In this document: piece after piece, positions 27,225-63,999 of the stretch | Layout: every line of letters starts with the position of its first letter | Position numbering within the stretch: position 1 is the first letter of the stretch | Origin: Siphonodentalium dalli | Lineage: Eukaryota > Mollusca > Scaphopoda > Gadilida > Siphonodentaliidae | Length of the DNA stretch: 64,000 nt | Direction: 5' to 3' | NCBI GenBank assembly: GCA_032622095.1 | Contig: CP136061.1 | Location: forward strand, 2,976,001-3,040,000 | Made by a program: the position numbers and the translations under genes | The notes under the pieces: generated by a model | Seen by the model: the letters and a program-made list of their open reading frames with translations, nothing else | Told to the model about the DNA's origin: nothing | Databases searched by the model: none

Positions 27225-27984
27225 ATGGCCTCTGTTGGAAGGGTGTCCAATTTGAAATTTCCAACTAAACCTACCAATGACCTACCCCCGTCGAATAATG
27301 TTAAAACGCCTAAACCAATTGAACGTAACCTGGGGAATTCTTCCTACGGAATGCAAGGGGTTCCACCTGTTCCCAAAGCTAGTGACCAAAGCCACCGAAA
27401 GCATTCACAGTCCTCGAAACAAGGCATCGAATTGCATGTAAATAGCCTACCAGAATCAGCACGTTCCTCGAAACCAGGCAGGGAACTACATGTGAATAGA
27501 ATATCAGCATTTTCGCCAACAGGGAGCAGCTCACCCCTAATACAATACTCGCACACGGCGGTACAGCGGAATGCAAACGACAGACTGTCACAGACACTGC
27601 GATGTAGAAACTTATGACATGGGTGATAATAAGAGACAGTCAGACACACATGAATCCGATTATTCAAGCCATGGTTTCACCGGTGTACCACACAACAGAC
27701 AAAAACGCACTAGGAAAATATTCGTTCGAGGAATTTCGTTGAGATCATGATAATGTGACATTTGGAATTATTTGGAGGAAAAAGGAGTCACGGCCACATT
27801 CGTGCGACTTTTGCGGAGCAACCGAAAAGGGACGCTGTCCGCGCGTATCCACATTCATGAGACCGACATGAACTCGATCTACAGAGACGACTTCTGGCCA
27901 AAAGGCATCGAATTCAGACCTTGGTCACGGGACCCACCAAAGCGTTCAACACACAATTATGATGACAATGATGGACAATATTAA
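27225..27984 (+). pseudogene. LINE ORF1 (RNA-binding protein), frameshifted
   Basis: Translation starts at ATG 27225 (AAATATGGCC). It gives a basic Ser/Pro-rich N-terminal part containing two copies of a short SSKxG-xELHVN motif (around residues 65-90). The frame shifts near 27,600 and continues as DVETYDMGDNKRQS and then KIFVRGIS. The C-terminal part (EEKGVTATFVRLL, KGTLSARIHI, DDFWPKGIEFRPW) resembles the RRM-like module of CR1/L1-type ORF1 proteins, which coat the element RNA. TGA-TAA stops at 27748-27753 interrupt it. The stop at 27982-27984 overlaps the ORF2 start. One frameshift and two adjacent stops make it nonfunctional. Confidence 0.75.
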
Positions 27985-29431
27985 TATTTTATCATGGAAC
28001 GCTACTGGGGTTAAACCCACAGTGCTATATCTGTCGTCGCTCCTCAAATCTCGGATTTACGACATTGTTGGATTATCTGAGCACTGGCTCGAGAGTGAAA
28101 ACTTGTCATTCATTCAATCAATATACAACTCATATGTTGCTGTGAGTAAACCAGGCAGGACAATTACAACGAGTAGTGGTGGGTGTTTCACACGCGACGG
28201 AGTTGCAATATTAATACAAAAGTGTATCGCAGATCAGTGTATAACGTTAGAATTCGGCATGAACTATGCAGTTGGTATACACATGTCACTTGGGGAATCA
28301 TCAGTTTTGACTTTCCTTCAAATATACTTACCCAGCACAAACCACAGTGATGACCATTTCGAAAATTGCTTGGAATCAATAGAAAATCTTATATCGATGA
28401 CCGCGGATGATGGTCCAATTATTGTAATGGGAGATACAAACTCTCACATGTGTCGCTTTCCCGAGCATATATGTGTACCAGCCGGTCACAAAACAAGAAT
28501 GGAGCTAATAAGTGCATTTCTCGAACGCATCTTGTCATTTTCTGTTACATGTACAACAACTTGTGAGGGTCCTGTTCACACGTTCTATCCATTTTCCACA
28601 GTAGCTGCACCCTCGCGCATCGATCACATAATTATCCCTCGTGCGTTGGAAGATCTGGTGATTAACTCTACAGTGCTTGACGACAACGAATTGAACACTT
28701 CAAACCATTTGCCCGTGACATGCTGCATACGCATTCCTGATGTTCCAGTGGACGTACCTCTACCTCACACAAAAGTCGCCTTTAACTGGGAGAAAATGGA
28801 CATACCGACGTATCGGAACGCACTGAATAATTTCTTAAGCAATGATTACCCCACTGCTATTGCTACTAAACCTGATCTCAACATTTTGTACTCTGATATA
28901 ATCACTGCAATTATATGTGCATCTTATGAATGTACCAGCCCAAAGTCACACCACAAGTCATCAAAGTCTTATTGGACTGCCGATTTGAAGCTTCTACATG
29001 ACGATCTAAAAATCAAACGCAGAGCTTGGATTGTGAACGGTAGACCACATGCGTGGGACGTGAGTTCCTACGTTGATTACAAAAACGCAAAGCGACAATT
29101 CAGACGGCGCATGCGCGCAGCATCCCGATCTGAAGGCGACAAACTCTGTGAAAACCTCGAGCGATTTGCTACCGACAACATTAAACGTTTCTGGAAAACT
29201 GTGAACACAAACAACCAGACATCGCACACCAACGGAAAAGGATGTGCTATGAATTTTGACGACAACATACTGCGTGAACCAGCACACATTTTATCTGTTT
29301 GGCGATCATATTTTAAGAAACTATATACTCCAGAGCCTCATTCTTATCCAGATTTTGAGAAATCCGTACGCATGCGATTATCGATAATCTCCATGAAGAC
29401 TTCAACTCGAACATGTTCTGTGATCCGATAA
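27959..29431 (+). pseudogene. LINE ORF2 N-terminal half: AP-type endonuclease, no RT
   Basis: The 490-codon frame opens at ATG 27959. The EEP/APE-type endonuclease motifs are in order: NILSWNATGV (residues ~8-17), DIVGLSEHWL (~35, metal-binding Glu), IYLPSTNHSD (~122), PIIVMGDTNSH (~152), SRIDHII (~218) and TSNHLPV (~243). The last is normally S-D-H, so the Asp is Asn here by one base change. Nicking of target DNA would be its role in an intact element. A basic linker follows (RRRMRAASRSEGDK, FWKTVNTNNQTS). A frame slip near 29,370-29,377 moves the true coding into another frame (DNLHEDFNSNMFCDPIN), which runs straight into the satellite at 29,433. All RT motifs are absent. Confidence 0.85.
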
Positions 29432-29432
29432 A

Positions 29433-30640
29433 CACCTATATCGCAATATGATTAAATACCATGGATAACTTAAAAATATCTCGCAATATGACTAAATACC
29501 ATGGGTAATTTAAAACTATATCGCAATATGACTATAAAATACCATGGATGGTTTAAAACTCTTTCGCAATATGACTAAATACCATGGATAATTTAAAACT
29601 ATATATCGCAATATGACTAAATACCTTGGATAATTTAAAACTATTTTGCAATATGACTAAATACCATGGATAATTTAAAACAATATCGTAATATGACTAA
29701 ATACCATGGATAATTTAAAACCATTTCGCAATATGACAATAATCATGGATAATTTAAAACAATATTGCAATATGACTAAATACCATGGATAATTTAAAAC
29801 TATATATCGCAATATGACCAAATACCTTGGATATTTTAAAACTATTTTGCAATATGACTAAATACCATGGATAATTTAAAACTATATCGCAATATGACTA
29901 ACTAGCATGGACAATTTAAAACTCTATCGCAATATGACTAAATACCATGGATAATTTAAAACTATATCGCAATATGACTAAATACCATGGATAATTTACA
30001 ACCATATCGCAATGGGACTAAATACCATGGATAATTTAAAACTATATCGCAATATGACTAAATGCCATGGATAATTTGAAACTATATCACAATATAACTA
30101 AATAACATGGACAATTGTAAACTATATCGCGATATGATTAAATAACATGGACAATTGTAAACTATATCGCGATATGATTAAATACCATGGATAATTTAAA
30201 ACTATATCGCGATATGAATAAATACCATGGATAATTTAAAACCCATATCGCAATAAGACTAAATACCATGGATAATTTAAAAATATATCGCAATATGACT
30301 AAATACAATGATTAATTTGAAACGATTGTGCAATAAGACTAAATACCATGGATAATTTAAGACTATCTCGCAATATGATTAAATACCATGTATAATTTAA
30401 AATTATATCGCAATATGACTAAATGCCATGAATAATTTAAAACTATTTCGCAATATGACTAAATACCATGGATAATTAAAAACCCTATCGCAGTATGACT
30501 AAATACCATGGATAATTTCAAACTATATCGCAATATGACTAAATACCATAGATAATTTAAAACTATATCGCGATATGACTAAATACCATGGATAATTTGA
30601 AATTACATTGCAATATGACTAAATACCATGGATAATTTAA
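29433..30640 (+). repeat. 40-42 bp satellite, about 30 copies
   Basis: The unit is TATCGCAATATGACTAAATA followed by CCATGGATAATTTAAAACTA, with point variants and a few 2-bp length changes. The array abuts the truncated LINE on its left and ends abruptly at 30,640. The monomer contains stop codons, so it has no coding role. Each unit has an NcoI-like CCATGG. Confidence 0.97.
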
Positions 30641-31110
30641 ATTTTCTACGCCAACTTTGACCACACTCCTATGAACGGAGGCGTTGACGCTATTGAATTA
30701 CTGATAAACCCTCTGCAGTAGAATAAAATAACGCCAGTAACTTCATATACAACACATCTGTTTCTTTGTCTCTTTGTATATAGGCCGACATTTCAACTTA
30801 GATACATACCATTTTGTCTGTTTTAAATAAAAACACAAAACAACTAAATAATTGGAATATAGTCACCCACGTTAAAAGATTACTCCCGTCTAGAAGTTTT
30901 TTTTATCGTTGTCGATCGCCGATAAACCACTGAACACGGTGCCGAATTTTTTTTTGTGATAGGCCACCCGTAACTGAAGGTATGCCGATTTATTGTTCCA
31001 TCATGGATTATGCAGTCTGAATATATTGTAATATGATCGTACGTGACACGTAATGGAGCAACCACCAAGTTGATCATTAAGTTCAATGTTACAATAATTA
31101 TAGGATGTTC
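30641..31110. other. no gene recognised
   Basis: A short plus-strand open piece right after the satellite (30,645-30,720, reading NFDHTPMNGGVDAIELL) might be LINE or host sequence. A 95-codon minus frame (30,880-31,167) is unrecognised. Confidence 0.35.
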
Positions 31111-32329: not shown

Positions 32330-35300
32330 GCCTAGTTATGCAAAGATTAAAATCAAAGATGGCCACGACAGCCATGTTTTTTGGCAAATGACCCAAAAAA
32401 GACTCCTTCCTATTTACATGTCATTGTTAACATCCATGACAAATCTCATGATGATTGGACCAAAAATTCGACTTGTAGCCCTTGACAAAGAATTTAGTCA
32501 TGCAAAGAGTATAATCCAAGATGGCTGCTGGCGGCCATGTTTTTGGCCGAACAACCCCAAAATTACTCGTTTCCCATCTACATGTCAATTTTAACATCCA
32601 TGACAAATGTAATGAAAGTGTCAATGACACTGTAGCTCAACTTAGTAGGGGAATGATTTAATGGTTGACAGTAAATGGAGTAATAGGAAAGGTGCTAATT
32701 GAAATGTCTAAGTAAGACTAGATGTACATGTCAATATCAACATTCATGACAGGTTTCATAATGATCGGATCAGGGATGTGGTGATTATGGTGTGCCAAAG
32801 GATTTATTGATGCAAAGAGTAAATTCTAAAATGGCCAATGGCAGCCATGTTTTTTTCCGAACTACCCCAAAATGAACTGTTCCCATCTACAGCCTTTACA
32901 AATCTCATAATGATCTGATCAAAGGTACGACCTGTAGCCTGTGCCAATGGATTTAGTCATGCAAAGAGTAAAATCCAAGATGGCTGCTGGCGGTCATGTT
33001 TTTCGGCTGAACGACCCCAAAATAACTCGTTTCCCATCTACATGTCATTGTTAACATCCATGACAAATTTCATGAAGTTCCGACCAAAGCTACGACCTGT
33101 AGCCCGCACCAAAGGATTTAGTCATGCAAAGAGTAAAATCCAATATGGCTGCTGGCGGACATGTTTTTTAGACAAATGACCCCAAAAACACTCTTTCCCA
33201 TCTACATGTTAATATTAACATCCATGATAAATATCATGATGATCAGACGAACAGTACGACCTGTAGCCCGTGCCAATGGATTGAATTTTGAAATCCAAGA
33301 TGGCCGCCAGTGGCCGTGTTTTTTGGTCGTATGACCCCAAAATGACTCATTCCCATCTAAATGTCAATATCAACATTCATAACAAATTTCATAAAGATCA
33401 GACCAAAGGTACGACCTGTAGCCCGCGCCAAAGGATTTAGTCATGCAAAGAGTAAAATCCAAGATGGCTGCTGGTGGCCATGTTTTTTGACCGAACGACC
33501 CCAAAATCACTTGTTCCCATCTACATGTCATTGTTAACATCCATGACAAATTTCATGAAGTTCTGACCAAAGCTACAACCTGTAGCCCGCGCCAAATAAT
33601 TTAGTCATGCAAAGAGTAAAATCTAAGATGGCTGCTGGCGGCCATGTGTTTTGGCTGAACGACCCCAAAATCACTCGTTGCCATCTACATTTGTACATGT
33701 CAATATTAACATCCATGACAAATTTCATGATTATCAGACGAACAGTACGACCTGTAGCCCGCGCCATTGGATTGAATTTTGAAATCCAAGATAGCCGCCA
33801 GCAGCCATGTTTTTTGGCCAGATGACCCCAAAATGACTCGTTCCCATCTACATGTCAATATCAACATTCATGACAAATTTAATAAAGATCAGACCAAAGG
33901 TACGACCTGTAGCCCGCGCCAAAGGATTTAGTCATGCAAAGAGTAAAATCCACGTTTTTTGGCCGAACGACTCCAAAATCACTCGTTCCCATCTACATGT
34001 CATTGTTAACATCCATGACAAATTTCATGAAGTTCTGACCAAAGCTACAACCTGTAGCCCGCGACAAAGAATTTAGTCATGCAAAGAGTAAAATCCAAGA
34101 TGGCTGCTGGCGGCCATGATTTTTGGCTGAACGACCCCAAAATCACTCGTTCCCATCTACATGTCAATATTAACATCCATGACAAATTTCATGATAAGAC
34201 GAACAGCACGACCTGTAGCCCGCGCCAATGGGTTGAATTTTGAAATCCAAGATGGCCACCAGCGGCCATTCGTTCCCATCTACATGTCAAGGTCAACATT
34301 CGTGACAAATTTCATAAAGATCAGACCAAAGGTACAACCTGTAGCCCGCGCCAAAGGAAATTATTGAGGGACACACGCACACACGGACGACGGACGCCAA
34401 ACAATGGCAATAGCTCAAACTTACAAAGTAAGTTGAGCTAATAATGATCCGACAAAAGATATGACCTGTGGCCCGTGCTAATGGATTGAATTTTGAAATC
34501 CAAGATGACCACTGACGGCCATGTTTTTTGGTCAAACGACCCCAAAATGACTCGTTCCCATCTACATTGTACATGTCAATAGCCATGACAAATATCATAA
34601 TGATCTGACCAAAGGTACGACCTAGGGCCTGTGCCGAAGGATTTAGTCATGAAAAGAGTAAAATCCAAGATGCTCATGACGGCCATGTTTTTTGGTCGAA
34701 CTACCCCAAAATGACTCATTCCCATCAGCCTGTCATTATTAACATCCATGACAAATTTCATGATAATCAGACGAACAGTACGACATGAAGACCGCGCCAA
34801 TCGATTTAATTTTGAAATCAAAGATGGCTGCCAGCGGCCATGTTTTTTGGCCAAATTACCCCAAAATGACTCATTCCCATCTACATGTCAATGTCAACAT
34901 TCATGACAAATTTCATAATAATCTGACCAAAGTTTGGACCTGTAGCCTGTGCCAAAGGATTTAGTCATGCAAAGAGTAAAATCCAAGATGGCTGCTGGCG
35001 GCCATGTCTTTTGACCGAATGACCCCAAAAGGACTCGTTCCCATTTACATGTCAAGATCAACAGCCATGACAAATTTCATGAAGATCCGACCAAAGCTAC
35101 GACCTGTAGCCCGCGCCGAAGGATTTAGTCATGCAAAGAGTAAAATCCAAGATGGCTACTGGTGGCCATATTTTTTGGCCTAACGACCCCAAAATAACTC
35201 GTTGCCATCTACATGTCAATATTAACATCTATGACAAATTTCATGATAATCAGACGAACAGTACGACCTGTAGACCGCGCCAATCTATTTAATTTTGAAA

Positions 35301-36750
35301 TCAAAGATGGCTGCCAGCCGCCATGTTTTTTGGCCAAATTACCCCAAAATGACTCATTCCCATCTACATGTCAATGTCAACATTCATGACAAATTTCATA
35401 ATAATCTGACCAAAGTTAGTACCTGTAGCCTGTACCAAAGGATTTAGTCATGCAAAGAGTAAAATCCAAGATGGCTGCTGGCGGCCATGTCTTTTGACCG
35501 AATGACCCCAAAAGGACTCGTTCCCATTTACATGTCAAGATCAACAGCCATGACAAATTTCATGAAGATCCGACCAAAGCTGCGACCTGTAGCCCGCGCC
35601 AAGGATTTAGTCATGCAAAGATTAAAATCCAAGATGCTCATGACGGCCATGTTTTTGGCCAAACTACCCCAAAATGACTCGTTCCCATCTGCCTGTCATT
35701 ATTAACATCCATGACAAATTTCATGATAATCAGACGAACAGTACGACCTGTAGACCGCGCCAATCTATTTAATTTTTTCCCAAATGACCCCAAAATGACT
35801 CATTCCCCATCTACATGTCAATGTCAACATTCATGACAAATTTCATGAAGATCAGACCAAAGGTACGACATGTAGCCCGTGCCAAAGGATTTAGTCATGC
35901 AAAGATTAAAACCCAAGATGGCTGCTGGCGGCCATGTTTTTTGGCCGAATGACCCCAAAATGACTCGTTCCCATCTGCATGTCATTGTTAACACCCATGA
36001 CAAATTTCATGAAGATCCAACTAAAGCTACAACCTGTAGCCTGCACCAAAGAATTTAGTCATGCAAAGAGTAAAATCCAAGATGGCTGCTGGCGGCCATG
36101 TTTTTTGGTCGAACAACCCCAAAATGACTCGTTCCCATCTACATGTCAATATTAACATCCATGACAAATTTCATGATGATCAGACAAACAGTACGACCTG
36201 TAGAACGCGCCAATGGATTTAATTTTGAAATCCAAGATGGCCACCAGCGGCGATGTTTTTTGGCGAATGACCCCAAAATGACTCGTTCCCATCTACATGT
36301 CAATGTCAACATTTATGACAAATTTCATAAAGATCAGACCAAAGGTACGACCTGTAGCCCGCGCCAAAGGATTTAGTCATGCAAAGAGTAAAATCCAAGT
36401 TGGCTGCTGGCCGCCATTTTTTTTGGCCGAATGACACCAAAAGGACTCGTTCCCATCTACATGTCATTGTTAACATCCTTGACAAATTTCATGAAGATCC
36501 GACCAAAGCTACGATCTGTAGCTCGTGCCAAAGGATTTAGTCATGCAAAGAGTAACATCCAAGATGGCTGCTGGCGGCCATGTTTTTTTTGGCCGAACAA
36601 CCCAAAAATGACTCGTTCCCATCTACATGTCAATATTAACATCCATGACAAATTTCATGAAGATCAGACTAAAGGCACAACCTTGAAATCCAAGATGGCC
36701 GCCAAGATGTTTTTCGATCGAAAGACCCCAAAATGATTCGTTCCCATCTA
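32330..36750 (+). repeat. ~160-bp satellite with trimeric higher-order structure
   Basis: About 27 monomers share CCAAGATGGC, GGCGGCCATGTTTTTTGGCC, ACCCCAAAATGACTCGTTCC, CATCTACATGTCAAT, CATCCATGACAAATTTCATG and ACGACCTGTAGCCCGCGCC. Two monomer types alternate. One carries TTTAGTCATGCAAAGAGTAA. The other carries TTGAATTTTGAAATCC. From 33,127 to about 34,230 they cycle as A-B-A' with a ~475-480 bp period. The many short open frames are shadows of the monomer. Confidence 0.95.
34358..34443 (+). repeat. satellite tail module, copy 1
   Basis: A non-monomer segment reads GGACACACGCACACACGGAC, then GACGGACGCCAAACAATGGC, and ends in a hairpin (TAGCTCAAACTTAC / GTAAGTTGAGCTA). It interrupts the satellite and is repeated at 37,251-37,340, so it looks like the true 3' end of an element whose body is the monomer array. 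Confidence 0.85.
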
Positions 36751-43774: not shown

Positions 43775-43890
43775 TATAGGGTGGATGCACACGTGCATGT
43801 AATTTCTTTATGTGAAATACATGTCTTTTACATGGCCACACCAATAATTGACAACATTAATCACCTGCGCGCGAGCGGTTCGTTGTCAAA
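43775..43890 (+). repeat. head of dispersed repeat R2, solo fragment
   Basis: It matches 57,607-57,720: GGTGGATGCACACGTGCATG, TACATGTCTTTTACATGGCC, ACACCAATAATTGACAAC and AATCACCTGCGC. Confidence 0.8.
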
Positions 43891-43982
43891 GTCGCCGTCG
43901 CGTAGTTCATATTTTACTCATTTCCCCGTCTGTTAGACCCACAGAGTCGAAATGAATCGCGCCAAATTTTACCGCTATCGAT

Positions 43983-44452
43983 TCACATTCCAGGACACTC
44001 CCATGGCATGCGCACAGCTCGAAACGAAAACAACAGATAGGGTGTATTTAATTTTTGAACCGTGACGTCATAAGGGACCTTCCCGCACTCTGTTGACATT
44101 GTGTTATCGAAATCGGATTCTGCGTGGTTTTGTTTTATTTCACAAACATGTTTCGTTTTCGTTGGAAATCGTGAATTTGGAATAGGTTTATATGTGTAAT
44201 AAAATATTGAATAATACGACAGAAATGTATTCGCGTCGCCAACAGCTCCGGAGTAAATGCGTACATATTTGGACGAAGTGCCGCTGGAGTATGTACTCGT
44301 GGCATGATCTACATGTAGGTCAACGGGAACTTCGAAATTTATTTTATCACATAATTTGGCCATAAAAGCAGTTTCATAATTATCGGTAATAGACACGTTT
44401 AATATCAGCGCGTGCGATGACGTCACGGCGTTCTTCAGATAACTTGCGATCG
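43983..44452 (-). CDS. unrecognised open frame, about 155 codons, possibly an exon
   Basis: After a possible acceptor (AACTACAG, 44453) the minus strand is open to a TGA at 43983. It is the longest frame here not explained by a repeat or LINE. It has no early ATG, and the first Met is within TAFMAKLCDK. The composition is protein-like (DNYETAFMAKLCDKINFEV, KYVRIYSGAVGDANTFLSYY). The last 25 codons overlap sequence related to 40,180-40,350, so part of it may be repeat-derived. TGACGTCA palindromes lie at about 44,063 and 44,418. I cannot assign a family. Confidence 0.22.
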
Positions 44453-44524
44453 CTGTAGTTTATGATTGTTGTTTTTGATGAATATTTCGCGTTGCTTCGG
44501 GTTTATTTGATCATGTGATAAAAT

Positions 44525-44667
44525 GAATCTCACACTCGTCCTATTTTATACGTAATTTATCAACCTCGTCCTCTAAATTCTATTTGAGCCTCGGTAAACC
44601 TCGGCTCAAATCGAATTTAGTGAACTCGGTTGATAAATTCCGTATAAAATAGGAACTCATGTGAGAT
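44525..44667. repeat. ~143-bp foldback palindrome
   Basis: The arms ATCTCACACTCGTCCTATTT and AAATAGGAACTCATGTGAGA, then ATTTATCAACCTCG and CGGTTGATAAAT, and the inner TTTGAGCCTCGG and CCTCGGCTCAAA, pair across a TAAA centre. Confidence 0.88.
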
Positions 44668-45189
44668 CCTCTATATCTTTCAACCTATTGTTGATATGAA
44701 ATACATGGGATACGTGACCGCTTTCGCAAATATCTGCTTTCAAGTTCCACAAGAAGAGTACGAATTATGTTTATGGCTGAACTATCAGAAGGGCTTCTTG
44801 TGCGGCTATGCTGTATAGTTATCTGCATGTATCACCTTTATGAAAATGATTTTAATATGATGAAATAGTGAAATACAGATATATACAGTATACTATGGCT
44901 TCTTCCATTCATTGAGTTGAAAAGTAAACACTTGAGTGTTATTACGCTAAATAATATAATATCTATGTTTAGGGTAAACACACCAGCTCCTCCCAAAATT
45001 GACCGCATCTTCAGCATTGTATGGGGTTCAAGTTTTTTTTTCCCAATTTTCCACTGACTCATTCTTTTTTCATTATAATATACAAAAATGTGATAACGAC
45101 CAGAATAAGCGTTTGCTTTAAAAATAGTGAACAATAGTCATTATTTTGTCATTTTATGCAGATTAGTTGCATACTTCACCTTCTCATGA

Positions 45190-45920
45190 GAAGTCTATTT
45201 CTTGCTATTTCATGACTATAAAGCAAAATAATCAATAAAACCCCAAGATGATTTTTGTCATGTAGGTCCTGGACTTCGTCCCCTCCTAGCCTGGACATCT
45301 TACCCCATTCAAACCCTGATTCAAACAACTTTTTCTCGGAAGAAGTTAATTTCTCGCTGTTTCATTACTATATAAAGCAAAATAAGCAATAAAACCATGA
45401 TTTTTCTCAAGTAGGCTCTGGTTGGGGGTTCTATATCCTGGTCTCGACATCTTCGTTTCATGACTATATAAAGCAAAATAAGCGATAAAATCTTAAGACA
45501 ATTTATTTTGTCATGTAGGTGCTGGGTTGTGGATAGCTATCCAGACCTGGACATTTGAAAAAATGAAATTAAATAAAAACAAATTTAAATCTCAAAAATC
45601 ATTTTTCTCGCCATTTCAGGATCAAATAATCAATTGTGTGATTAAAAATTTTGTCCGCTTGGAATAAAATATATTTTAATAAAAAAAAGGGAATTATAAA
45701 AAAACCTTTCTGTCCATTTCAGGATCAAACTATAAAAAGTGTGTAAAAAATTTGTCACTTGAAAATACAAAAAATTTAAATAAAAACAAAATTATATATC
45801 AAACTATTTTCTGGCCATTCCAAGTTCAAACGTTATCAAATGAGTGAAACTATTTTTAGTCATATATGGGGAGGGAACTATCCTGGGTGGGGGGAGATAT
45901 CCTGGGGGAGATGAAGTGTT
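45190..45920 (+). repeat. ~130-150 bp tandem repeat, forward block
   Basis: The units share CATGACTATATAAAGCAAAA, TAAGCAATAAAACC, TTTTGTCATGTAGG and CTGGACATCTT. Later units (45,580-45,860) are more diverged. Confidence 0.75.
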
Positions 45921-46305
45921 ACACCGGGTACCTCATCTTGTAATTCATTATTCAATGGTGGTTAAAATTTAGATAATAAGTTCAGGTCATTTGTTGAATA
46001 TATTATCTGAACATTTCCTTTGGAACTACTGAACGATGGAAGGGTTAAATTATGTTTTTTGCTGAAACATATTGAATGTCATTTTGTTGTTGGTGATGCC
46101 ATATAGTTAAACTTCTATCGGGTAATTCCCGGGTAAATATGCCAATTATTAGTTGAATCAAGAAAATATCCCCCTGACATAAATCACTTTGATAAATTTC
46201 ATAACAATTAGATTATTACCATGGGAGATAGAGTGATTTCTGTCTGGGGGTAACTTACTTTTTTGTGTGTTCATTCTCCAGAAAAAAAATCTAAATCTGA
46301 AAAAA

Positions 46306-46532
46306 GCAAACTTTCAAGTAAGTGGCGATCAGTAATGTGTTAATTTTGTGAGTAGAAACTCTCCGGTCATGCTCCATTCGCCATATGTCCCATCTTTGAT
46401 ACATATCATAACAATAGGTTAGTACTATGTGATATACAAAGATGTGACATGTAGCAAATGGAGCATGACCTGAGAGATTCTACTCACAAGAAGAGTTAAC
46501 CCATTTATGAGCGCCACTTACTTGAAAGTTTG
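46306..46532. repeat. ~227-bp foldback palindrome
   Basis: The arms GCAAACTTTCAAGTAAGTGG and CCACTTACTTGAAAGTTTGC are perfect at the ends. The inner TCATGCTCCATTCGC and GCAAATGGAGCATGA continue the pairing to a ~35-nt centre. It lies about 100 bp past the 3' end of the P2RX7-C coding region. Confidence 0.9.
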
Positions 46533-46636
46533 CCATTTGTTAGTAACACTTTGGTATTTTATCGATGAATTTTATGGGAGATGAAGATTAGGGAGATACA
46601 TTGTAACAATAATATGTTAAGATTTCATTCATGTAT

Positions 46637-47053
46637 TCATTCATTCTCCAGCTCGGGCAAACGAAAGTCCCTGTAATTTCCACCATCATTTGGGAAAGCA
46701 TGCCTGATGCCATTCACAACACACGATGGAAGATGTCTGCGGTTATGCAAACCAAGGTAGCCATAGCACCACCGAATAAACTGTCTGTATGCTATATGCC
46801 TGTATTTGTTGTGCAGAGGTCCATTAAACGGATGCCTATACTGTTGCTGGTATCCTAACCATGCAACTTCAAGTAGCCATGGGTCCAGGCACACACTCCT
46901 GAAGGGGACAGTCTCCGTGATACATTTGAAGTATCGTTCTCCTCTGAAAACGCTTTTGTCACATTATTCAGCTTGGCCTCAACTTTTTCAATCTCATGGC
47001 AACATCTGCACTTACAGGTAGTCTCCATCACTGTACATAGGCCGCATGAACAC
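46637..47053 (-). CDS. P2RX7-C gene, exon 2
   Basis: The acceptor AG is at 47,054-47,055. The exon enters with one base completing the Trp codon. It carries all but the first Trp of the domain, including eight Cys within the first ~25 residues or close by, and the HNKYRHIAYRQFIRWCYG and SCVVNGIRHAFP blocks. The reading frame changes once near 46,940 between EKVEAKLNNVTKAFSEE and YFKCITETVPF. The stop is at 46637-46639. Confidence 0.82.
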
Positions 47054-47210
47054 CTGAAATGACAAGGGAAATATATGTATTATGGAACAACTCAGAGTTA
47101 ACATTCAATTCCTCAATTTTGTTGATGAATACTTTGACAAATGTGTAACAAACTCTACTTTCAGTAATGTCCTAAATAATCGACCCCTCAACCACATCAT
47201 AATTATAGGT

Positions 47211-47310
47211 AATTTTTCAGGATTCAGTCGGAAATATGGCTTGTTGAAATTCATCGGAAAGCTCTCATGAATGGCAACAAGCCATATTTCGGACTAAATC
47301 CTTAAAAGTT
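47211..47310. repeat. hairpin in the P2RX7-C intron
   Basis: CAGTCGGAAATATGGCTTGT pairs with ACAAGCCATATTTCGGACT, extending outward to AATTTTTCAGGATT and AATCCTTAAAAGTT. The spacer is about 28 nt. Confidence 0.88.
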
Positions 47311-47347
47311 AACCACAGTTCTGCTGTTAAGGGGTTGAATGTTTAGG

Positions 47348-47600
47348 TCATTGCTGTATGTTCTGATGAATGACAGTGGACATGCGTCTGGCCGTCCACT
47401 TGTTCTCATGGATACATGTATCTTGGATAAGTTTCCACACAAATTTGTTATCAGGTGTTATACGTGCTGAATTGTTTACCAGATATCTATTTCATTATCC
47501 AGGTCTGTTAATATCTTGTTTTAAGGATTCACGACTTATGGTTTGTGTACCTGGTGTACATGACATCTCCCTTTTTACTATATTCAGTCTGTCAAATGCT
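47348..47600 (-). pseudogene. unrecognised coding-like fragment within the intron
   Basis: The minus strand is open for about 84 codons apart from two adjacent stops (TAA-TGA) in the middle. It reads RLNIVKREMSCTPGTQ and ISRESLKQDINRPG before the stops, then NRYLVNNSARITPDNKFVWK and LIQDTCIHENKWTARRM after. The texture is protein-like and it shares strand with the P2RX7-C gene. It could be a skipped or dead exon or a transposon scrap. I do not recognise the family. Confidence 0.3.
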
Positions 47601-47639
47601 CAAACCCACCGATAATTCAACATATGACAAAATATAAAT

Positions 47640-48290
47640 GTACATGTATTAATTTATTGCTTATTTATTTTGATGTTATAGTGATTAAATGGCGATCAAT
47701 TAACATGTTACAAGAAAAAGTTGTTTGAGGCAGGGTTTGGGTGGAGAGGGGGGGGGGATTAGATACCCATGTCTGAGTATCCCCCACACCGAGCATCTAC
47801 ATATGAGTATATGACAAAAATAAACTAATTATTTAATCGCATATATTGCCCTATATATCCATTAAAATTTTAATTGATTCAGGATTCGGGGTGGGGAGAA
47901 ACTACACAGGCCTTAATATTCCACCCCCCAAAAACCAGCAGCTACATATGAGAACAAAAATATATTATGATTTATCACTTACATGTATATCGCTTTATAT
48001 ATTCATGAAATGGCGAGAAATTAAAATTAATCGAGAAAATATTTATTGAGTCAGGGTTTGGGGTGGGAGGGGGAAATACCGAGGCCTGAGTACCTCTCGC
48101 CATTTCATGACTGTATAAAGCAAAATAAGCAATAAAATAACAAGTTCATTTTTGTCATAAGTAGCTGCTCGGTTGGGGAGTGGGGGCGATAATAAACCCT
48201 AGTATCTTTCTCCCACCCCAAATACTGACTCAAACAACATTTTCTTGGAGAGTTGATTTCTTTCCGTTCCATGACTATATATTCAGAAAT
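47640..48290. repeat. ~130-150 bp tandem repeat, inverted block with a strand switch
   Basis: From 47,640 to about 48,095 the units are the reverse complement of those at 45,190-45,920 (TTTATATATTCATGAAATGG, GAGTCAGGGTTTGGGGTGGG). At about 48,098 (CTCTCGCCATTTCATGACTG) the orientation returns to forward and continues to about 48,290. Confidence 0.75.
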
Positions 48291-48539
48291 AGCATACATT
48301 GGCATGTATAGACCAAGTCTTTTCAGTCCACAACAGCTTGGGAAATTGGTTGGGTTGATGCTGTTTTGGATCGAGAATCCGAGATACCTCATGTTGCTCT
48401 TCTATACCGGTACCGTAACAGATTGGCATTCAAAAGACATACTACATGTACATATATAGAACCCCGGCAGTCACGTGAACCCATGAATATGATTAATCAT
48501 CTCACTTGGACCACAATGAATCTGTCTTCAAACTGATAT

Positions 48540-48745
48540 ACTGTTATAGAAAATATATCCATCGAGATATTATCTCGACTCTCACGAGATTTCGAGAAAA
48601 GAATCTTGAGATATTAACATATTTTATTGAGATCATACGGCAAGATCTCAAGAAATTATGATGAGATCTCAAGATAATATCGCGAGGTACTAGTAATATG
48701 TTCAGAGCTTGAAATGCTCATGTCAGTATCGCAAGATGTGTCGAG
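48540..48745. repeat. GAGATCTC / ATCTCGAGAT word cluster
   Basis: Short words such as GAGATATTATCTCGA, AAGATCTCAAGA and GAGATCTCAAGATAATATC recur about ten times in 200 bp, in both orientations. They lie inside the P2RX7-C intron. Confidence 0.7.
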
Positions 48746-49141
48746 ATAACAATTAACATGTTGAATATTCAAGACAATTTTTTTCTTGGACAATGTCACA
48801 AATCAACACTGTCACTGATTGTGATAGTACTGATACTGATAGCTGAATCCAATGTCAATCCGTGAGCAGCCATGGACTGGCAGTGGTCGAGTCCAGAATT
48901 TCAATACATCACAAAATTGACATTTTTAGTAAACAAATTACTATAATTTTAGACTAACATTTCGGCAGACACACAACTTTTCCTTGAATTATATTTCATA
49001 TTTCGATGTATTGAGTATGCATTATGATTATTACACATGTCCGCTCGAATAAAGGGGGTTTTCGCTAGTATTAACTTCAATTTTATTTTCACATGTTTTG
49101 CCAGTGACCGCGACATTTTTAATAGACACTCAGTGACTCAC
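48746..49141. other. intron sequence, nothing further recognised
   Basis: This stretch lies between the word cluster and exon 1 of the P2RX7-C gene. The exon 1 donor GTGAGT is at 49,136-49,141. Confidence 0.5.
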
Positions 49142-49251
49142 CATTTTCGTACGCGATTTTCATCTCTTCGCCATTCAAGGTCTGGCTCGTTTGATGGTCT
49201 CACACAATGGTGATTTTGTGGTAATTCCGGCTCGTGCATGTACGCTCCCAT
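49142..49251 (-). CDS. P2RX7-C gene, exon 1
   Basis: From ATG 49,251 the minus strand encodes about 36 acidic and basic residues: MGAYMHEPELPQ, NEPDLEWRRDENRVRK. It ends in TG of a Trp codon immediately before GTGAGT. The short charged N-terminus leading to W-C-x-C-G is usual for invertebrate P2RX7-C proteins. Read through without splicing, the next codon after Trp is TGA, so only splicing extends the protein. The frame is open upstream to about 49,389 and lacks an in-frame ATG there. Confidence 0.75.
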
Positions 49252-49904
49252 TGTCAAATTTAAAGTGTCTTCTGCTGGCGAATCATACGAGGAAGAATCA
49301 GATCGCAAAATTGTTGCTGTCTGCCATACTGTGGGAAATCCCAGGGGTCCCCTATGACACGCTTTCTCGCAAATAACTGGATCCGTCAAAATAGATAATG
49401 AAGTGAGGCATCAGGATATCACCCCGCCACCCACAGTCTTAAACACTCGTATTTTTCAGACAGTGGGGGATTGTTTTCTTAAATAAGTGTGCATAATTTA
49501 ATACAAATATGAATAAATGAACATATATTGAGAATTTTCGCGGCGGCGACTTTAACAGACAAAACAAGTGAGTAGTGATGAGCGAAGTCAAACTGTCTGC
49601 TAGCTGGACAATTAAGGCCAGTCCTAAACATGTCTTCTCTTATGGATGCAGTAATTAGTCTGGCATATGCAGGCTTGATATAGAACATTTTCGACCATGG
49701 TGCTTGTTTAGCGTGGGGTCTCGATATATTCAAATCGCCAAGGGACTTAGTTGAATGTATTGGTCGGAATAATCTGAACAAGAATGTACAGTATAATATG
49801 TTTTCCTTAAATAGCTCAGAGTTAGCCACCCCGCCTGGTAGCTTTCGGGATCATATAGCCCGAGGTCGGGGATCATATGTAGCCCCCTGCGTTGGGGAAA
49901 TCCA

Positions 49905-51941
49905 GGGGCCTGTTTCATGAAGCAAGGTCATAAGATTATCTTAAGATGGACTTAATCTAAGATTTAAGGTGGATCTTATGATGTAACTTTTCCGTTTCAA
50001 GAACGCGTTTCACAAACCAAGATTAAGTCCTACTTAAGTAGTACGTTAAGTTCCCGCTCATTTAGACTGGTTATCGACAATTTTCTACAGTCCGGAACAA
50101 AAAAATGTGGGCTGTGCAATCTTTATGTACGGCATTGAGAGGTTATCGAGAAAGAGCCGAGTCCCAGTTGACATTATTGTGTGACAGGGATGCTGGATAG
50201 CGGCTGGGGTGTGGGTGTGCGAATCAGCCCATGTATCTTAGTGTCTATAGTCCGGCCTTATATTCGCATATAGATCTTAGACTTGTATGAGTTCCACGAT
50301 GTGAATTCGAACATGAGTACATCGCAGGCTCTTAAAATGACGAGCTTTGCGTTTACTGACGAGTGGCGGTGTCAGAAATAAGACAATATAATTATATGGA
50401 TCGATGCATGACTGCGACCATGCATTCACGCCGAGTTAATCCACTGAGAACAATGATCAGGCGGGGATTTTTTGATGTGAGCCGACATAACTCGTGTATT
50501 ATCGACCACCGCTGTCTACGTGTAGCAATAATCACAATAAATCGGCGTTTTCATTAGCACACTCGTATTAAGGGGTGTCATCGTTACGGTGTGTATATAA
50601 TATATACAGTATGCTGTACAAGGTTCATCGCACCCCTGCAAAAAAAAACATGACAAAAATTTGGACAGCATTGAAAATCACGACATATGGGCGTGGACAT
50701 AAACTCAATAAAAATAATATTCTCTATAGAAAATTGTCACTATTTATAAACATATTTTGATAAAGAGCGTTTGTGTTACATTTCCTATATGACATATCTG
50801 CTTTGTAAACAGCCGACGGAAATTTGGAAAGAGGAAAGAATCAATACATTAATTGATCTCATTTTACCCCATCTCCCCACACACACATGAAATAACATAG
50901 AGGAGATTGTGAGCTTTGAGCTAGGCCATAATTCTTATCAAAAGTTTAATTCGTGGGTAATACAATTTTATAATATATATTATCTATATGTCACACACAC
51001 AGCTGATAATTGACTATATCCTACATTCGACGAGGCTCGGGGTGGCTAGTTGGTCTCTGTGGGGGGTGGGTGTACATCGTGCAATTTCCAACTGCACCCG
51101 CCCCTTAATTGAACCGGGCCAAACTTCCATGTTCGCGAAATGCCATGTCCACCCCACCCGTTGGATTTAAACTTTCCAATTGGTATCTCAAATATTCCAA
51201 CAGTTCGAAATTTCTAACCTGACGCCCCTAAAGTTGGTGATTTTCGGTTGCTGCTATTTGTCTAAAACAACTCATTCCTTTACTAGTTAGAAATTCAAAC
51301 AATTGAAATCTATATATAGTGTACGATTAATGTTGTTGTCAGGCATGAAATTTCCAATTGCTAAACATTTTTACCAAAGTGTGTGTGTGGGGGGTGGGGG
51401 GGGGGGGGGATAGACAACACACAAACCCCATTCGCCACGTCCCTGATGATAAGCCTGTGCTCTAAATTTTTTTACCAAACTAACCATATGGTTATACGGT
51501 GGGGGGGGGGGGGGGGGTGGTTGCCCTCTCCAAACTCTGGTTTTGGAAAGTTTGAGGTACCAGTTGGAATGTTTAAACCCAAAGAGAATTTGGTGTTGTT
51601 TAAGGGGGTGTAGTTGGACGTTTCGAGGCGAACACCCCCATCTCACTCTGTAGCCACGACCCTGTATACCAGACGACGAATTGCCCACCCAGACAATATA
51701 CAGATATCTCCGTAATTGCAAAATAACATAGGCCGCCATACTTGTGATATGCCACTTATCACGTGGGTCTTAACTTTAATATTATCTTATGACACCTCAC
51801 AGCAGTCTTAAAGTTAAGACCAAAGTTAAGACCATCTTATGTTAAGACTTTGTTCGTGAAACGCACTTATGACTGAAGTTTGAACTTATGACCATCTTAA
51901 GTCCCAACTATGTCATAAGTTGCCTTCATGAAACAGGGCCC
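49905..51941. mobile_element. 2.04-kb non-autonomous DNA transposon with foldback-style TIRs
   Basis: It begins GGGGCCTGTTTCATGAAGC and ends with the complement of GGGCCCTGTTTCATGAAGGC. Sub-terminal repeats of GTCATAAG, ATCTTAAGATGG and CTTAAGT fill the first ~150 bp and last ~180 bp. There is no transposase; the interior holds G-rich runs (51,396-51,409 and 51,501-51,517). Flanks AAATCCA and TTATCTA may be an eroded 7-8 bp target duplication of TGATCCA in copy B. I cannot assign the superfamily. Confidence 0.85.
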
Positions 51942-51957
51942 TTATCTACCACTGCTA

Positions 51958-52569
51958 TCTATTATATATTTTGAAAGATCTGTGTGTGTGTGTGTTTGAA
52001 ATCGATGAACTCAAAAACGACTAAGCCAATTTCGATGAAACTTGGTACGTGGGGGTATTTTCGGCCGGAGACGAACATAGGCATATTTATTTGTCCGTGC
52101 GACGTGACCGTCACCTTCAAAACTCATATCTCGGGATAGCAGTGCTAATCACGCCGAGATTTAGCAGTGCGATGCAGGGAGGATAACTCTATATTCATAC
52201 GTCGACGAACGTATATAAGCAAACAATGCGTAACTTCTATGACGTCGTCAGAGTTCATAACGTTAGATCACGTTAACGCTCAACCGGCCGATGCATTTGA
52301 CTGTTTCAGACGTCTTGGCGATATCTCGGGCACCGATGGTAATTTATCTTTACGTGTGTAAATGTGGCGCGTTTATATACTTGAGTGGAAATAAAATCGG
52401 GTTAAAAGGTCAAATCGGGTAAAACCGGATGGATTTCGACGGGTACTTTTGTCGGGTACTTTTGTTCGGGCAGTGTTTTGGACGGGTCAAATCGTGACCC
52501 CACTTGACCTTGGCCTTCACAATAGACAATTCAAGGTCAAACCCCGGACGAAGTCGGGTCACCTTCTAG
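51958..52569 (+). mobile_element. non-autonomous Helitron, first of a tandem pair
   Basis: It starts TCTATTATATATTTTGAAAG and ends with a hairpin (CCCGGACGAAGTCGGG) ten bases or so before CTAG. These are the 5' TC and 3' hairpin plus CTRR marks of Helitrons. A (GT)n run follows the 5' end. It has no Rep/helicase. The host base before it is A, and copy B of R2 shows the unoccupied A|T site. Confidence 0.88.
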
Positions 52570-53288
52570 TCTATTATATATTTTGAAAGATCTGTGTGTG
52601 TGTGTGTGTGTGTGTTTGAAATCGATGGACTCAAAAACGACTAAGCCAATTTCGATGAAACTTGGTATTTGGGGGTATTTTCGGCCGGAGACGAACATAG
52701 GCATATTGATTTTCAGATCCGAGGTCAACTTTTCACGTGCAGAGGTCAAATCTGTTTTTACGCCGTTTTGCGCTAATATATTTCAGTTCGGTGCTCACAA
52801 ATCGATTCGATATAGCGCGAATAATAAATTGCCAGTCATATAATTTGCACGGTTATAATCTGTGGCGTGTCACCTTTCCAATGATGTATCACACGCCTGT
52901 GTACGTTTAAAGTTTCTACCTTAATTATCGGGAAGAACACAAGTTCATGCTTCGCTCATCGAAAATCATTGCGTAAAAAAATATATTACGCCATCAACAC
53001 ATCGTGACGTGACCGCGTTAACTCTTAAGAGGCCGATGTCGCGTTAACTCATCACCGGCCGAGGTATCCGCAAATGACATTGGGCTATATATCTCGGAAA
53101 CGGGTGTAGCTATCGACTTGAAATTTGGTATGTGAATGTATCTTACCCCGGATACGAATTTTATCGGGTCGCCGAGCCCGTGCGACACCAGCTTCGCGCA
53201 TGCGCAGACCAGATCTAGGAAACGGGTGGAGCAATCGACTTGAAATTTGGTTTTTGAATAGCCCGGACGAAGTCGGGTCACCTTCTAG
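52570..53288 (+). mobile_element. non-autonomous Helitron, second of a tandem pair
   Basis: It begins with the same TCTATTATATATTTTGAAAG directly after the CTAG of the first element, with no base between, and ends in the same hairpin plus CTTCTAG. The first host base after it is T (53,289). Its interior adds a diverged inner copy of the 5' region (GACTTGAAATTTGGTATGTG at ~53,115 and again at ~53,237). Confidence 0.88.
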
Positions 53289-53700
53289 TAAATATATAAA
53301 TGTCAAGAGAGGACTGGTAATTATTTAATTAGAACCTCCATCATATGGGTTATCCACAAACAATATTTTAAGAGGCCTGGCGACTCGGTCCAAGGCAGCG
53401 TCTTCTCTGCATTCCGACGTAATTGGAAACCGAACTCAGTGCGGTCAACACGTCGGCAATGATTGTGTTGTCAGTGGACACATATTACGTTGTCTGTATG
53501 ATCCATGTAAAACGCCAAATACACGATAATTACATATATTACATGAATGTGTGTATCCACCCATAAGATCTCTACTCTTACGTTCATAATTTATACCATT
53601 TTGAGTTAAAATATCAATATAGTATATTTAAAATTAACACCAACCAGTAAACCTGAAACTACATACGCCATCATATTTTCTTATTGTAATATTTATTCAG

Positions 53701-53760
53701 GGGCAGGAGGAAGACGGCCAGTACGATGTTACCGCGAACTGCGACTTGAAGTTTAATTGA
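53701..53760 (+). CDS. candidate terminal exon, 19 codons
   Basis: A T-rich tract ending in TTATTCAG precedes a phase-0 open stretch reading GQEEDGQYDVTANCDLKFN and then TGA. The peptide has ordinary protein composition. No upstream exon or poly-A signal was found, and the family is unknown. Confidence 0.22.
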   Translation, partial: GQEEDGQYDVTANCDLKFN

Positions 53761-56120
53761 AACAATGCACAATTGGTTACTACTGATTGAGAGGTGTATT
53801 TCACGCCGTATCTGTCACGCTTTCATGTCAAGATATTTGGTCAAATGATATCGAGACAATGATATTTATGGGATATAACGGTGTGGTGTTTTGTGATTTC
53901 TGAAAGTACACGTATACAGGGTGAATGTATTGACTGTCAATTTTCTACAAAAGCGACGCCACTGTGTTGCTTATATAGCAACCAGCTAGTAACGGAAGTC
54001 AGTAGACCGGATGCCAGCTCTATGCATCTACTCAGTAACGTCGTCGGTGTGTACTGCGTAAATGTGACGTCGTGGAAAGGAACTGTGAGCGGAGCCGGAT
54101 GGTCCATGGACGAGACTTTGAAATCAGCTGCTGTTAATATTGGCGCGTATGAATATCTAACATTGAAGCTCTGAATCGGACTACACTTTGCGACAGTTTA
54201 TCGAAAATTAACCGCCCGCAAATCTTTGATGTTTCAGGGGGTATATTGGCACAAGTGTATTAGAATTTTGTATATTGGTACATTTTAGGGAAGCATAATC
54301 AATTTACTCCACGACAGGACCATTTCCATATTAGACATTCCAGGAGAATGACCTGGTATGACCAAATTACTCACCCTCACCCCATCAACATTTCTACCAA
54401 AAAGACAATGTGAGTCAGATTGTATTATTTATGTTCATTGTACTTCATTATAAAACTGCCTTAGTCATTACTATTTACAAAAAATAGAAGAATAACTATA
54501 GACATGACATTGAAACCATGTTGACCCTCGGGACACTGTCACTGTGGCTTTTTCACACTGTTCGCAAAATTAAAAAAAAATCATTTAGATTTAAATTTGT
54601 GAAAAATACATTAATATGTCCTTGTTTAAGTTGATTGTATATCACTCTTATATAACACCCCTTCAAATTGAAAACAGCTGCACCTCGATATAATCAACAA
54701 TATGCCCAGTATTTTGAATTATCTACCTTACCCCGTCAAAATGTACAATTTAGACAAATACGATAAAAACATAAAAAGTGCCATACAATTAGAACGCGAA
54801 ACGTCTCAGATGGCAAGCATGCCTAAATTATGTGGAATGTCATGCCCTATGACAATAATTGGGTCTTTCAATTCCGCAGAGGGGAGGGGTTTCCACGTGT
54901 TGGCTCAGGGTATATGTCACGGCTGTTGGTGATAAAATGATAACATAACATTTGGGTGCTTCCGTTGTCACGCAGCGTGCGCTGTCTACGAATCAACTGG
55001 ATCACCGTTCTGAACGCATTCGAAGCATGTTGTCCCTCCTGAGTATCATTGATATAAAAAGAGTGCCATACACCATGAAATCTTCATTTTATACTGATAA
55101 TAATGGGGGGGGGGGGGGGGCATTTGTTTGTGCTTATGTTGTCTGTCATTTCGGCATTTTTTAAAACTAATTTTTCACAATAAAGTAGAGATAAACCCGA
55201 TAATTATTCAATTTATTGTACACAATAACATTGTGTTTGTCTAAAAAACACTATTAGGTTTGTCTAAAAACACTGTGGTACAATTTTCCGGCTTCCCAAA
55301 AGCGGTAGCGAATATTTGGCGAAATCCGTGTTATTGCGTAATTTATGGAGTAGGGTTAAGTTTGACGCAATATATACAATATGTCATATCCTTAGCTTAA
55401 CAAGGTTTATATCTACTGAAACAATAATCATTGCTGATGTGTTCGGGACTTGTATTGGTTACATTACACCCGGGCTCAAAGGTTTGGGAAACTCAATTAA
55501 TTTAATTTATTTTGCACCATTTCGACAATTTGAACCCATTTTTTTCTAAAACGGTCATATGTCGGGAAACGATATATTATATCGTATAGTACTATATTTT
55601 AGAACGATTTCGACTACTCTTAATGTGATGGTCCATCATTCACTGTCACCATGGTCGCTGACAAATAATTGGGTACTATTATATTCTAGGCGTTATCCCC
55701 CGTAATTTCGCCATGTTTTGACACTTTGCCGGCCTGACAACAAATATTTGTTATCCCCGTAATTTCGCCATGTTTTGACACTTTGCCAGCCTGGCAACAC
55801 GTATTTTCTAATCCAGGAGATGATGGCCTTTAATTATATATAAAGAAACCTTTGATCGGACAAAGTGGAGTGACATAAAAAAAATAAAGCCCTTTTGAAA
55901 CTTTGCCCACGGACTAAACGAATAAGTTAGTATTACAATAGTTCAGTATCGTATATAGGCCGTCCAATATTGTAATTATGGTGCAGATGTGCACACTAGC
56001 GTGCAAACTAACTGTGCTGCATCCAATAATACCCGGGTGAATAACCATAGCTCAGTGAACACGAATAGAGATAATTCGAAACATTTGCTAGCATACTAGG
56101 GTGAGGCTATAACCTGACGT
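53761..56120. other. no gene recognised
   Basis: An open plus frame at 53,881-54,174 is unrecognised and starts with GTG. A 58-bp tandem duplication (GTTATCCCCCGTAATTTCGC ...) lies at 55,692-55,807. A run of 16 G is at 55,105-55,120. Confidence 0.4.
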
Positions 56121-62374: not shown

Positions 62375-63999
62375 AATTCATCTCCAATTCTCCGGAATCG
62401 CAAAGCGGACATACACGACTTGTGTTGCCTGGTGTTTCCACCGTCCGGTTTCGATAGGTAGATGGTGATTACCAGTTCTAAATTTACATACGGTTATTCG
62501 GTTTGCCGTGTTCAGAGTTTCCAGATATCTCTCAAAGGATAAATCATGCTTAAATATCCTTAAATATCCTATAAATTCGACCGCGACTGGAGTTGTTTAT
62601 ATCAGTTTCCCATGAATCCCTGAACGGTGTAATTAGGCTACACTTTATATATGATACAAATTGATCAATGTCTGGAATTGTTCCATATGCCAAGCATGCA
62701 ATTGATTACAATTTTTCTAATATGTTATAGATGGTATGCAACCAAGGAAAATTATTTGCATTAATGGCAAACATGGTATGTGATAGTTTCAGGAGTATTC
62801 TAGGGTACCTGTCTTCATGGCTATTCATAACCTTACACCAAAATTTTATCATTCGTGTGTTCACATGTATGTCAATAGGCAATCTTCCGCATTCGCCATA
62901 TAACATAACATTAGGGGTTGATGGTCTGAGTTTGAGAATGTGCTGAATGAATTTACGATGAACCTTTTCGAGAACATCATTGTTCCCAAATCCCCAGATT
63001 TCACATCCATACAGCAGTATTGGCATAACATGCAAGTCAAACAAATCCAGTTGGTTTTTTATCGACGTGCAGTGCTTCCTTGATTTCCCAATAATGGTGT
63101 ACATATATCTGGTTGCTTTGTCTGCAAGATCTTTTTTCGCCATTGAGAAGGAACCTGATTTACAAAATAGGATACCAAGATAGCTGAATGTGTTTACTAC
63201 ATCAATTTTTCTCCCCTTGAACATAAATATTATTTTCTTTGGGATACTAGTCTTAGAGAGATTGAGGAATTTTGTTTTGTCCACATTTACTGTCAGTAAA
63301 AACTGTTACAATATTTTTCGAAAAAATCTAGTTGGGACTGCAGATCTTGGGTGGTTTCAGCCATAAGTGTGGTATCGTCAGCATACAGGATCATAAATAT
63401 TTTGACGTAACAGCTTAGTCGGTTCTCTATTTCTGAGTCAATTGTTTTCAGGCCAGTTACGCCGTTTCCAAGTAAAAATTCTTCGAGATCGTTTAAGTAT
63501 AGCGTAAATAGTAGAGGAGACATGTTATCACATCGACGAATGCCTGCGTAACATGGGAAGTAGATGGATTTGATGCCGTCTAGTTGAACACATGATTTTA
63601 TGTGATTATACATATTGGTAATGACTCTGCAATTTTTTCCATTGATACCATTTTTTAATATTTTGTACCACAGCCCTTGTCTCCATACCATATCAATGCC
63701 TTTTGGAAGTCAATGAAAGCGCAGAATATTTTTTTGTTCAGTTTTCTACTGATTTCAAATAGTAGGTGTAAGCTGAAAATGTTGTCGACAGTTGAATAGT
63801 GCTTTCTGAACCCCGCCTGATTTTCAGATATAATGTCATACTCTTCAGCAAATTGGCCCAGGCGATTTGATAATATCTTTGTGAATAGTTTTCCAAAACA
63901 GCTTAGCAGCGTGATAGGTCTATAATTACTGGGATCATTTGAGTTTCCTTTATTTTTATACAGAGGGACAATTGTTCCTATAACCCAGTCCTGTGGTAC
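62375..63999 (-). pseudogene. LINE ORF2 reverse transcriptase, lightly broken
   Basis: Reading from 63,999: VPQDWVIGTIVPLYKNKGN, DPSNYRPITLLSCFGKLFTK, SENQAGFRKHYSTVDN, FCAFIDFQKA. One base is missing near 63,692, after which MVWRQGLWYKILKNGI continues. GIRRCDNMSPLLF stands where relatives have RQG, so that motif is altered. YADD is at about 63,375-63,395. Another base is missing near 63,300 in a T run. VDKTKFLNLS, SYLGILFCKSGSF and LYGCEIWGFGN follow. TAA at 62,706-62,708 and a 10-bp tandem duplication (GGATATTTAA, ~62,552-62,571) interrupt the C-terminal part. It ends in RYLETLNTANRITVCKFRTG and, after another shift, CPLCDSGELE. Confidence 0.85.

Follow-up and report, generated by a model that had tools for sequence, protein, structure and literature searches.

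What kind of gene encodes the ballast (P2RX7_C) domain that lies on the minus strand between positions 46,637 and 49,251 of a 64,000-nucleotide stretch of Siphonodentalium dalli DNA (contig CP136061.1 of assembly GCA_032622095.1, positions 2,976,001–3,040,000; this whole stretch is called the window here)? A preliminary description, made from the sequence alone, took it to be a genuine host gene with two exons that codes for a ballast-domain protein standing alone, and stand-alone ballast proteins have been treated as host genes linked to two markers by Rump et al. (2020, PMC7016195). We find instead that a Kolobok DNA transposon, Kol0-like in kind and equipped with the accessory gene KolX, almost certainly underlies the feature, in the form of a copy that is decayed and non-autonomous; we call it a non-autonomous relic because no transposase is recognised in the window copy and its KolX frame is broken. 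Kolobok transposons of the Kol0 lineage are described by Kojima and Bao (2022, PMC9587614) as encoding a transposase and KolX, and the same account gives Kolobok termini as 5'-RR and YY-3', assigns KolX a ballast fold and derives P2X7, and likely Nanor, from it.

The splice signals from which the host gene had been proposed are present: read on the minus strand, exon 1 closes with ...AAAATG at 49,142 and is followed by a GTGAGT donor, and a TTTCAG acceptor ending at 47,054 precedes exon 2, which starts with G at 47,053. The codon joined over the junction is TGG (Trp), and the spliced peptide reads ...RKWCSCGLC..., the zinc motif that had been pointed out. The remainder of the domain (HNKYRHIAYRQF, SCVVNGIRHAFP and DFRLPELE) had been placed in exon 2, and it is indeed encoded there, within 46,637–46,963, but in a frame other than the joined frame. 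That second frame matches Pfam P2RX7_C (PF20478) with an expectation value (E) of 3.6e-16 over profile positions 105–192 and scores 60.1 bits, above the curated cut-off of 23.5, so the domain had been named correctly; this core also matches P2X7 chains of the PDB (E 6.1e-06). All seven ballast zinc cysteines are still encoded in the window, divided five to two between the two frames, as judged by eye from the cysteine motifs of PMC7016195; in the HMMER alignment of a spliced relative (described below) to P2X7, the CC pair is not cleanly placed.

A host gene would be expected to have one open domain-bearing frame across the junction. The spliced frame from the ATG at 49,251 is 102 amino acids (aa) long and ends at a stop codon at 46,855–46,857, and the Pfam search of the joined frame that the preliminary description had itself named beforehand as the refuting check gave no match for this 102-aa product even at E values up to 10; its claim thus fails for the window copy. 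In four distinct relatives (L033, L035, L040 and L041) the exon-1 frame can be followed back as far as a Met further upstream; the window has this Met in another frame, and the Met frame there meets a stop. From the 102-aa joined frame without a Pfam match, the early stop in exon 2 and the shifted exon-1 Met it follows that the window copy of KolX is a broken gene, and the frame is also broken in L010, a 98% duplicate.

Is the junction then an accident? A related copy at 209.9 Mb of contig C1, whose exon 2 is open and 91% identical to that of the window, argues that it is not. Spliced, its open KolX is 172 aa long, counted from an internal Met, and it matches P2RX7_C at 1e-17 over positions 71–191 and a P2X7 chain at E 1.7e-07. 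Chance is no sensible explanation for the junction and the domain, because this relative, read over the same junction, matches the domain that well, and the family very probably does have this intron, since the relative yields one continuous P2RX7_C protein over it. Judged by its sequence, the ballast protein gene is the transposon's own KolX, split by one intron that falls inside the Trp codon, just ahead of the zinc motif's first cysteine.

The exons and the intron belong together to a repeat that is dispersed in at least 40 copies and whose match to the window continues about 2.7 kb downstream of the exons. When the best 40 of 233 candidates for exon 2 were scored, all 40 places matched at 91–100% identity, and for exon 1 the best 40 of 256 candidates all matched at 88–100% (the window is included in both). 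The repeat is bounded by terminal inverted repeats (TIRs) and a target site duplication (TSD) (Table 1). The matches of L045, L047 and L048 break off near 49,555 and 43,888 and their flanks are different, the ends of L049 agree with those of the window element within about 10 bp, and L046 has only the left end in common with it. The 15-mer of the family TIR occurs 303 times in the genome, 295 of these behind TTAA; the reversed pattern, used as a control, occurs 0 times. Among the places listed, out of 295 in all, we counted by eye at least 22 facing TIR pairs 2.0–14.7 kb apart, a count that leaves out a cluster at C3:59.7–60.7 Mb. The TSDs of nine elements, four of which (L050–L053) were chosen by a pattern that itself holds TTAA, read TTAA/TTAA in seven, TTAA/TTGA in the window and TTCA/TTCA in the ninth.

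Several copies have features of their own. L045 is the element with TTCA on both sides instead of TTAA. L044 (G000:C1:5,121,500-5,130,499) is a partial duplicate of the wider window region, 2.1 Mb away and about 95–98% identical to it in the longer matched pieces, flanks outside the element included; near window position 49,234 some 1.2 kb of additional sequence interrupts the match, and L044 lacks window positions 49,760–53,808. Many TIRs lie at C3:59.7–60.7 Mb, and at four places in G000:C3:59.80–59.81 Mb the exon-1 sequence of the family repeats every ~2.12 kb, as though a portion of the element had turned into a tandem array there.

Sites without the element were found as well. The window flanks, joined at one TTAA, match all 40 of the scored places (the best 40 of 1,779 candidates) at 90–92%, each match covering at least 214 of 220 bases, and in the one site that was aligned base by base (L067) a single TTAA stands at the junction. 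The joined flanks of L050 were treated in the same manner, and seven of their 10 matches run through at 96–98% identity; those of L045 matched many other places at about 74–81%. Since the joined flanks occur elsewhere without the element, the window element has landed cleanly in another repeat. A host gene for a stand-alone ballast protein, to which the canonical splice signals, the joined WCSCGLC motif and the strong domain match in one frame had lent credit, is very improbable in view of these results: the joined frame of 102 aa is without a domain match, and the unit that contains it is a dispersed, multi-copy element bounded by TIRs, which has a TSD of TTAA and for which empty sites exist. 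The observation that the domain stands alone, with no P2X channel part, was accurate; it appears alone because it belongs to the KolX gene of a Kolobok transposon (of the kind described in PMC9587614) and not to a host protein.

Could a KolX copy nevertheless have been domesticated, so that this locus is kept by the host for its protein? The idea has a precedent in the proposal that domestication of KolX gave rise to P2X7 and Nanor (PMC9587614). We compared exon 2 in the 23 copies whose match begins at its first base (L019, which starts at base 2, was left out), and an early stop is present in 20 of them, the window among them, which also speaks against a host gene; the three others (L012, L015 and L028, the last of these at C4:154.57 Mb) have none. 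Differences from one reference fall on codon positions 1, 2 and 3 in numbers of 300, 157 and 218 (30 rows, five of them duplicates and L051 partial), and in 25 sequences including the reference there are 26, 41 and 42 singleton variants and 20, 7 and 15 shared variants at these positions. No clear third-position excess is thus seen in the exon-2 variants of the 30 rows or the 25 sequences, so selection on KolX in the family is unsupported, and the pattern is the one that decay would leave if the protein were under no selection. With the singletons distributed in this way, and with the frame broken both in the window and in the duplicate L010, domestication of this locus is highly unlikely.

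If the feature is a Kolobok relic, where is the transposase? Of the best 150 of 236 candidates scored genome-wide, 111 are P2RX7_C matches, and the strongest of these loci led to transposase exons on the opposite strand. A 112-aa piece of this transposase was found at 59 places (all 90 candidates were scored); at 32 of these a listed P2RX7_C match lies within 20 kb, and in 32 of 32 it is on the opposite strand and convergent. For random positions the mean number of such pairs is 0.135 and the maximum 2 over 200 draws; these draws used a guessed, too-short length for C6, which is immaterial at such a margin. In all six of the loci L003–L008 the last transposase exon is on the 5' side of KolX and the preceding one 3' of it, and because transposase exons thus flank it on either side, KolX appears, as read from the exon positions, to sit antisense inside a transposase intron; for L001 and L002 only the last transposase exon was found. 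The C1:209.9 Mb copy has transposase exons convergent with its KolX (GGDGRHDS, ITDMH, FDCWH and SRLENF) and a left TIR behind TTAA with one mismatch, and so supports both the intron and the pairing of KolX with a transposase for the family. L064, another KolX-paired locus outside the window's subfamily, has a 632-aa open reading frame about 8 kb from its own P2RX7_C match, in which AGDGRSDS, VTDRH, FDPWH and RLEVFH were read by eye as D, D, C/DxxH and E; its Pfam matches, to MULE and Mutator transposases, are below the cut-off.

The window copy and L044–L053 gave no transposase match with pieces from L001, L003 and L006 (E up to 0.1), with pieces from L054, L006 and L001 (E up to 1), or with the L064 and C1:209.9 Mb queries (E up to 10 and 1). 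Longer TIR-to-TIR copies were expected to hold the transposase; four such copies, L050–L053, carry the same interior and none was found in them. The motifs of a DDD/E transposase with C/DxxH were read in relatives, namely L064 and the C1:209.9 Mb copy, and not in the window copy, which would suit a non-autonomous element.

A TTAA duplication, which marks the Kolobok superfamily and was found here, is also made by piggyBac elements, and in a few piggyBac families there is a protein that resembles the C-terminus of KolX (PMC9587614), which might suggest that the window element is a piggyBac with a KolX-like gene. We regard this as extremely unlikely. The window termini AG...CT fit the RR...YY rule that PMC9587614 gives for Kolobok, the C/DxxH motif is read in the C1:209.9 Mb and L064 transposases, and L064, the only one scanned, has no piggyBac Pfam match (E up to 1). 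Moreover, the piggyBac proteins are without most of the seven cysteines, as PMC9587614 describes them, and the KolX of the C1:209.9 Mb copy keeps all seven, by eye.

The assignment to Kol0-like Kolobok thus draws on several likenesses to the Kolobok-1_XT type described in PMC9587614: the TTAA duplication, the RR...YY ends, an accessory protein with a ballast domain (PF20478 in the second frame of the window and in the spliced relative) and, in relatives, motifs read by eye as those of a DDD/E transposase with C/DxxH. The element differs from that type in that no transposase is recognised in the window copy, whose KolX frame is broken, and in that KolX is split by an intron at the zinc motif, within its Trp codon. 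KolX-bearing Kolobok transposons were already known (PMC9587614), and the window element adds a new member. Elements like the window copy would have moved by cut-and-paste with a DDD/E transposase that full-length relatives supplied in trans and that would recognise the 15-bp TIRs and insert at TTAA; KolX, which is frequently paired with the transposase and may for that reason be assigned an accessory role, would act as a zinc-binding accessory in transposition. The window copy itself was most likely moved in this manner by a Kolobok transposase and is now inert, with no functional protein presumably made from it.

Several observations weigh against this assignment or qualify it. The Kol0 label for the lineage is provisional. 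The C1:209.9 Mb copy agrees with the window element in the left TIR and in its left and middle portions but has hardly anything of its right 2 kb, and the right end of the C1:209.9 Mb copy was not found in 19.6 kb with up to 4 mismatches, so no complete autonomous element bearing precisely this pair of TIRs was obtained; an in-frame TGA lies within its transposase match, so this copy may be dead too. At 27 of the 59 transposase matches no listed P2RX7_C match lies within 20 kb. Finally, the three of 23 copies without a stop in exon 2 mean that KolX may be made from some copies.

The core in the window and the spliced relative both match the C-terminal ballast of vertebrate P2X7 in sequence, but here the domain belongs to a transposon gene without the channel part. 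The invertebrate ballast-domain (ZCD, NANOR-like) proteins of PMC7016195 have the same domain, likewise without a P2X channel part, and differ in that the gene considered here belongs to a large mobile family in its genome. Rump et al. (2020, PMC7016195) reported an "ancestral synteny" of ballast genes with two markers from sponges to molluscs and sea urchin. Because the convergent pair was seen in 32 of 32 cases and KolX is antisense in a transposase intron in six of six, we put forward tentatively, as a possibility somewhat short of an even chance, that invertebrate ballast genes are mostly transposon KolX and that this synteny is in part the pair of KolX and transposase. A clean splice junction and a good domain match can arise from a dead transposon copy, and a tempting gene call is corrected here; we suggest that annotators screen invertebrate P2RX7_C matches for TIRs and TTAA before calling host genes. 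In this genome KolX, from which the tail of P2X7 is proposed to derive, occurs in abundance, often together with a transposase, and can be dated by empty sites, so the origin of P2X7 by fusion with a Kolobok gene is open to further examination.

Table 1. Features of the Kolobok-type element in window coordinates.
Feature	Position	Strand	Basis or remark
Whole Kolobok-type DNA transposon copy, 5,662 bp	43890..49551	-	TIR search, element length; similar ends in other copies
5' TIR, begins AG, one change from family 15-mer	49537..49551	-	TIR search; family 15-mer 303 times in genome
3' TIR, ends CT, one change from family 15-mer	43890..43904	-	TIR search
TSD, 5' copy, TTAA	49552..49555	-	TIR search; single TTAA at empty site L067
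TSD, 3' copy, now TTGA	43886..43889	-	TIR search; TTAA there in duplicate L044
KolX exon 1 as first described, from in-frame ATG	49142..49251	-	Upstream Met frame of relatives broken here
Splice donor GTGAGT	49136..49141	-	Read in sequence
Intron, itself within dispersed repeat	47054..49141	-	Crossed by single long matches of L046–L049; L045 in two pieces
Splice acceptor TTTCAG	47054..47059	-	Conserved in forward-oriented rows of copies
KolX exon 2, first frame (CSCGLC ... RCCHE), stop-terminated	46855..47053	-	Frame translation, joined product
Second frame of KolX exon 2, holding the P2RX7_C core and the stop codon of the family	46637..46963	-	Translation, Pfam match
Right part of element, without recognised protein	43890..45940	-	C1:209.9 Mb copy matches only in one 89-bp piece

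Elsewhere in the window, a Pfam scan found nothing in the 158-aa open reading frame at 43,986–44,459, ARAGORN (bacterial setting) found no tRNA, and no Rfam family matched at gathering score. Pieces of retroelements are present at 4,688–6,625 (plus strand, reverse transcriptase, RVT_1), 27,872–29,428 (plus strand, endonuclease, Exo_endo_phos) and 63,296–63,709 (minus strand, reverse transcriptase, RVT_1), and long tandem arrays occupy 9,990–11,087 (19-bp unit), 29,436–30,641 (40-bp unit) and 32,898–36,683 (unit of about 164 bp).
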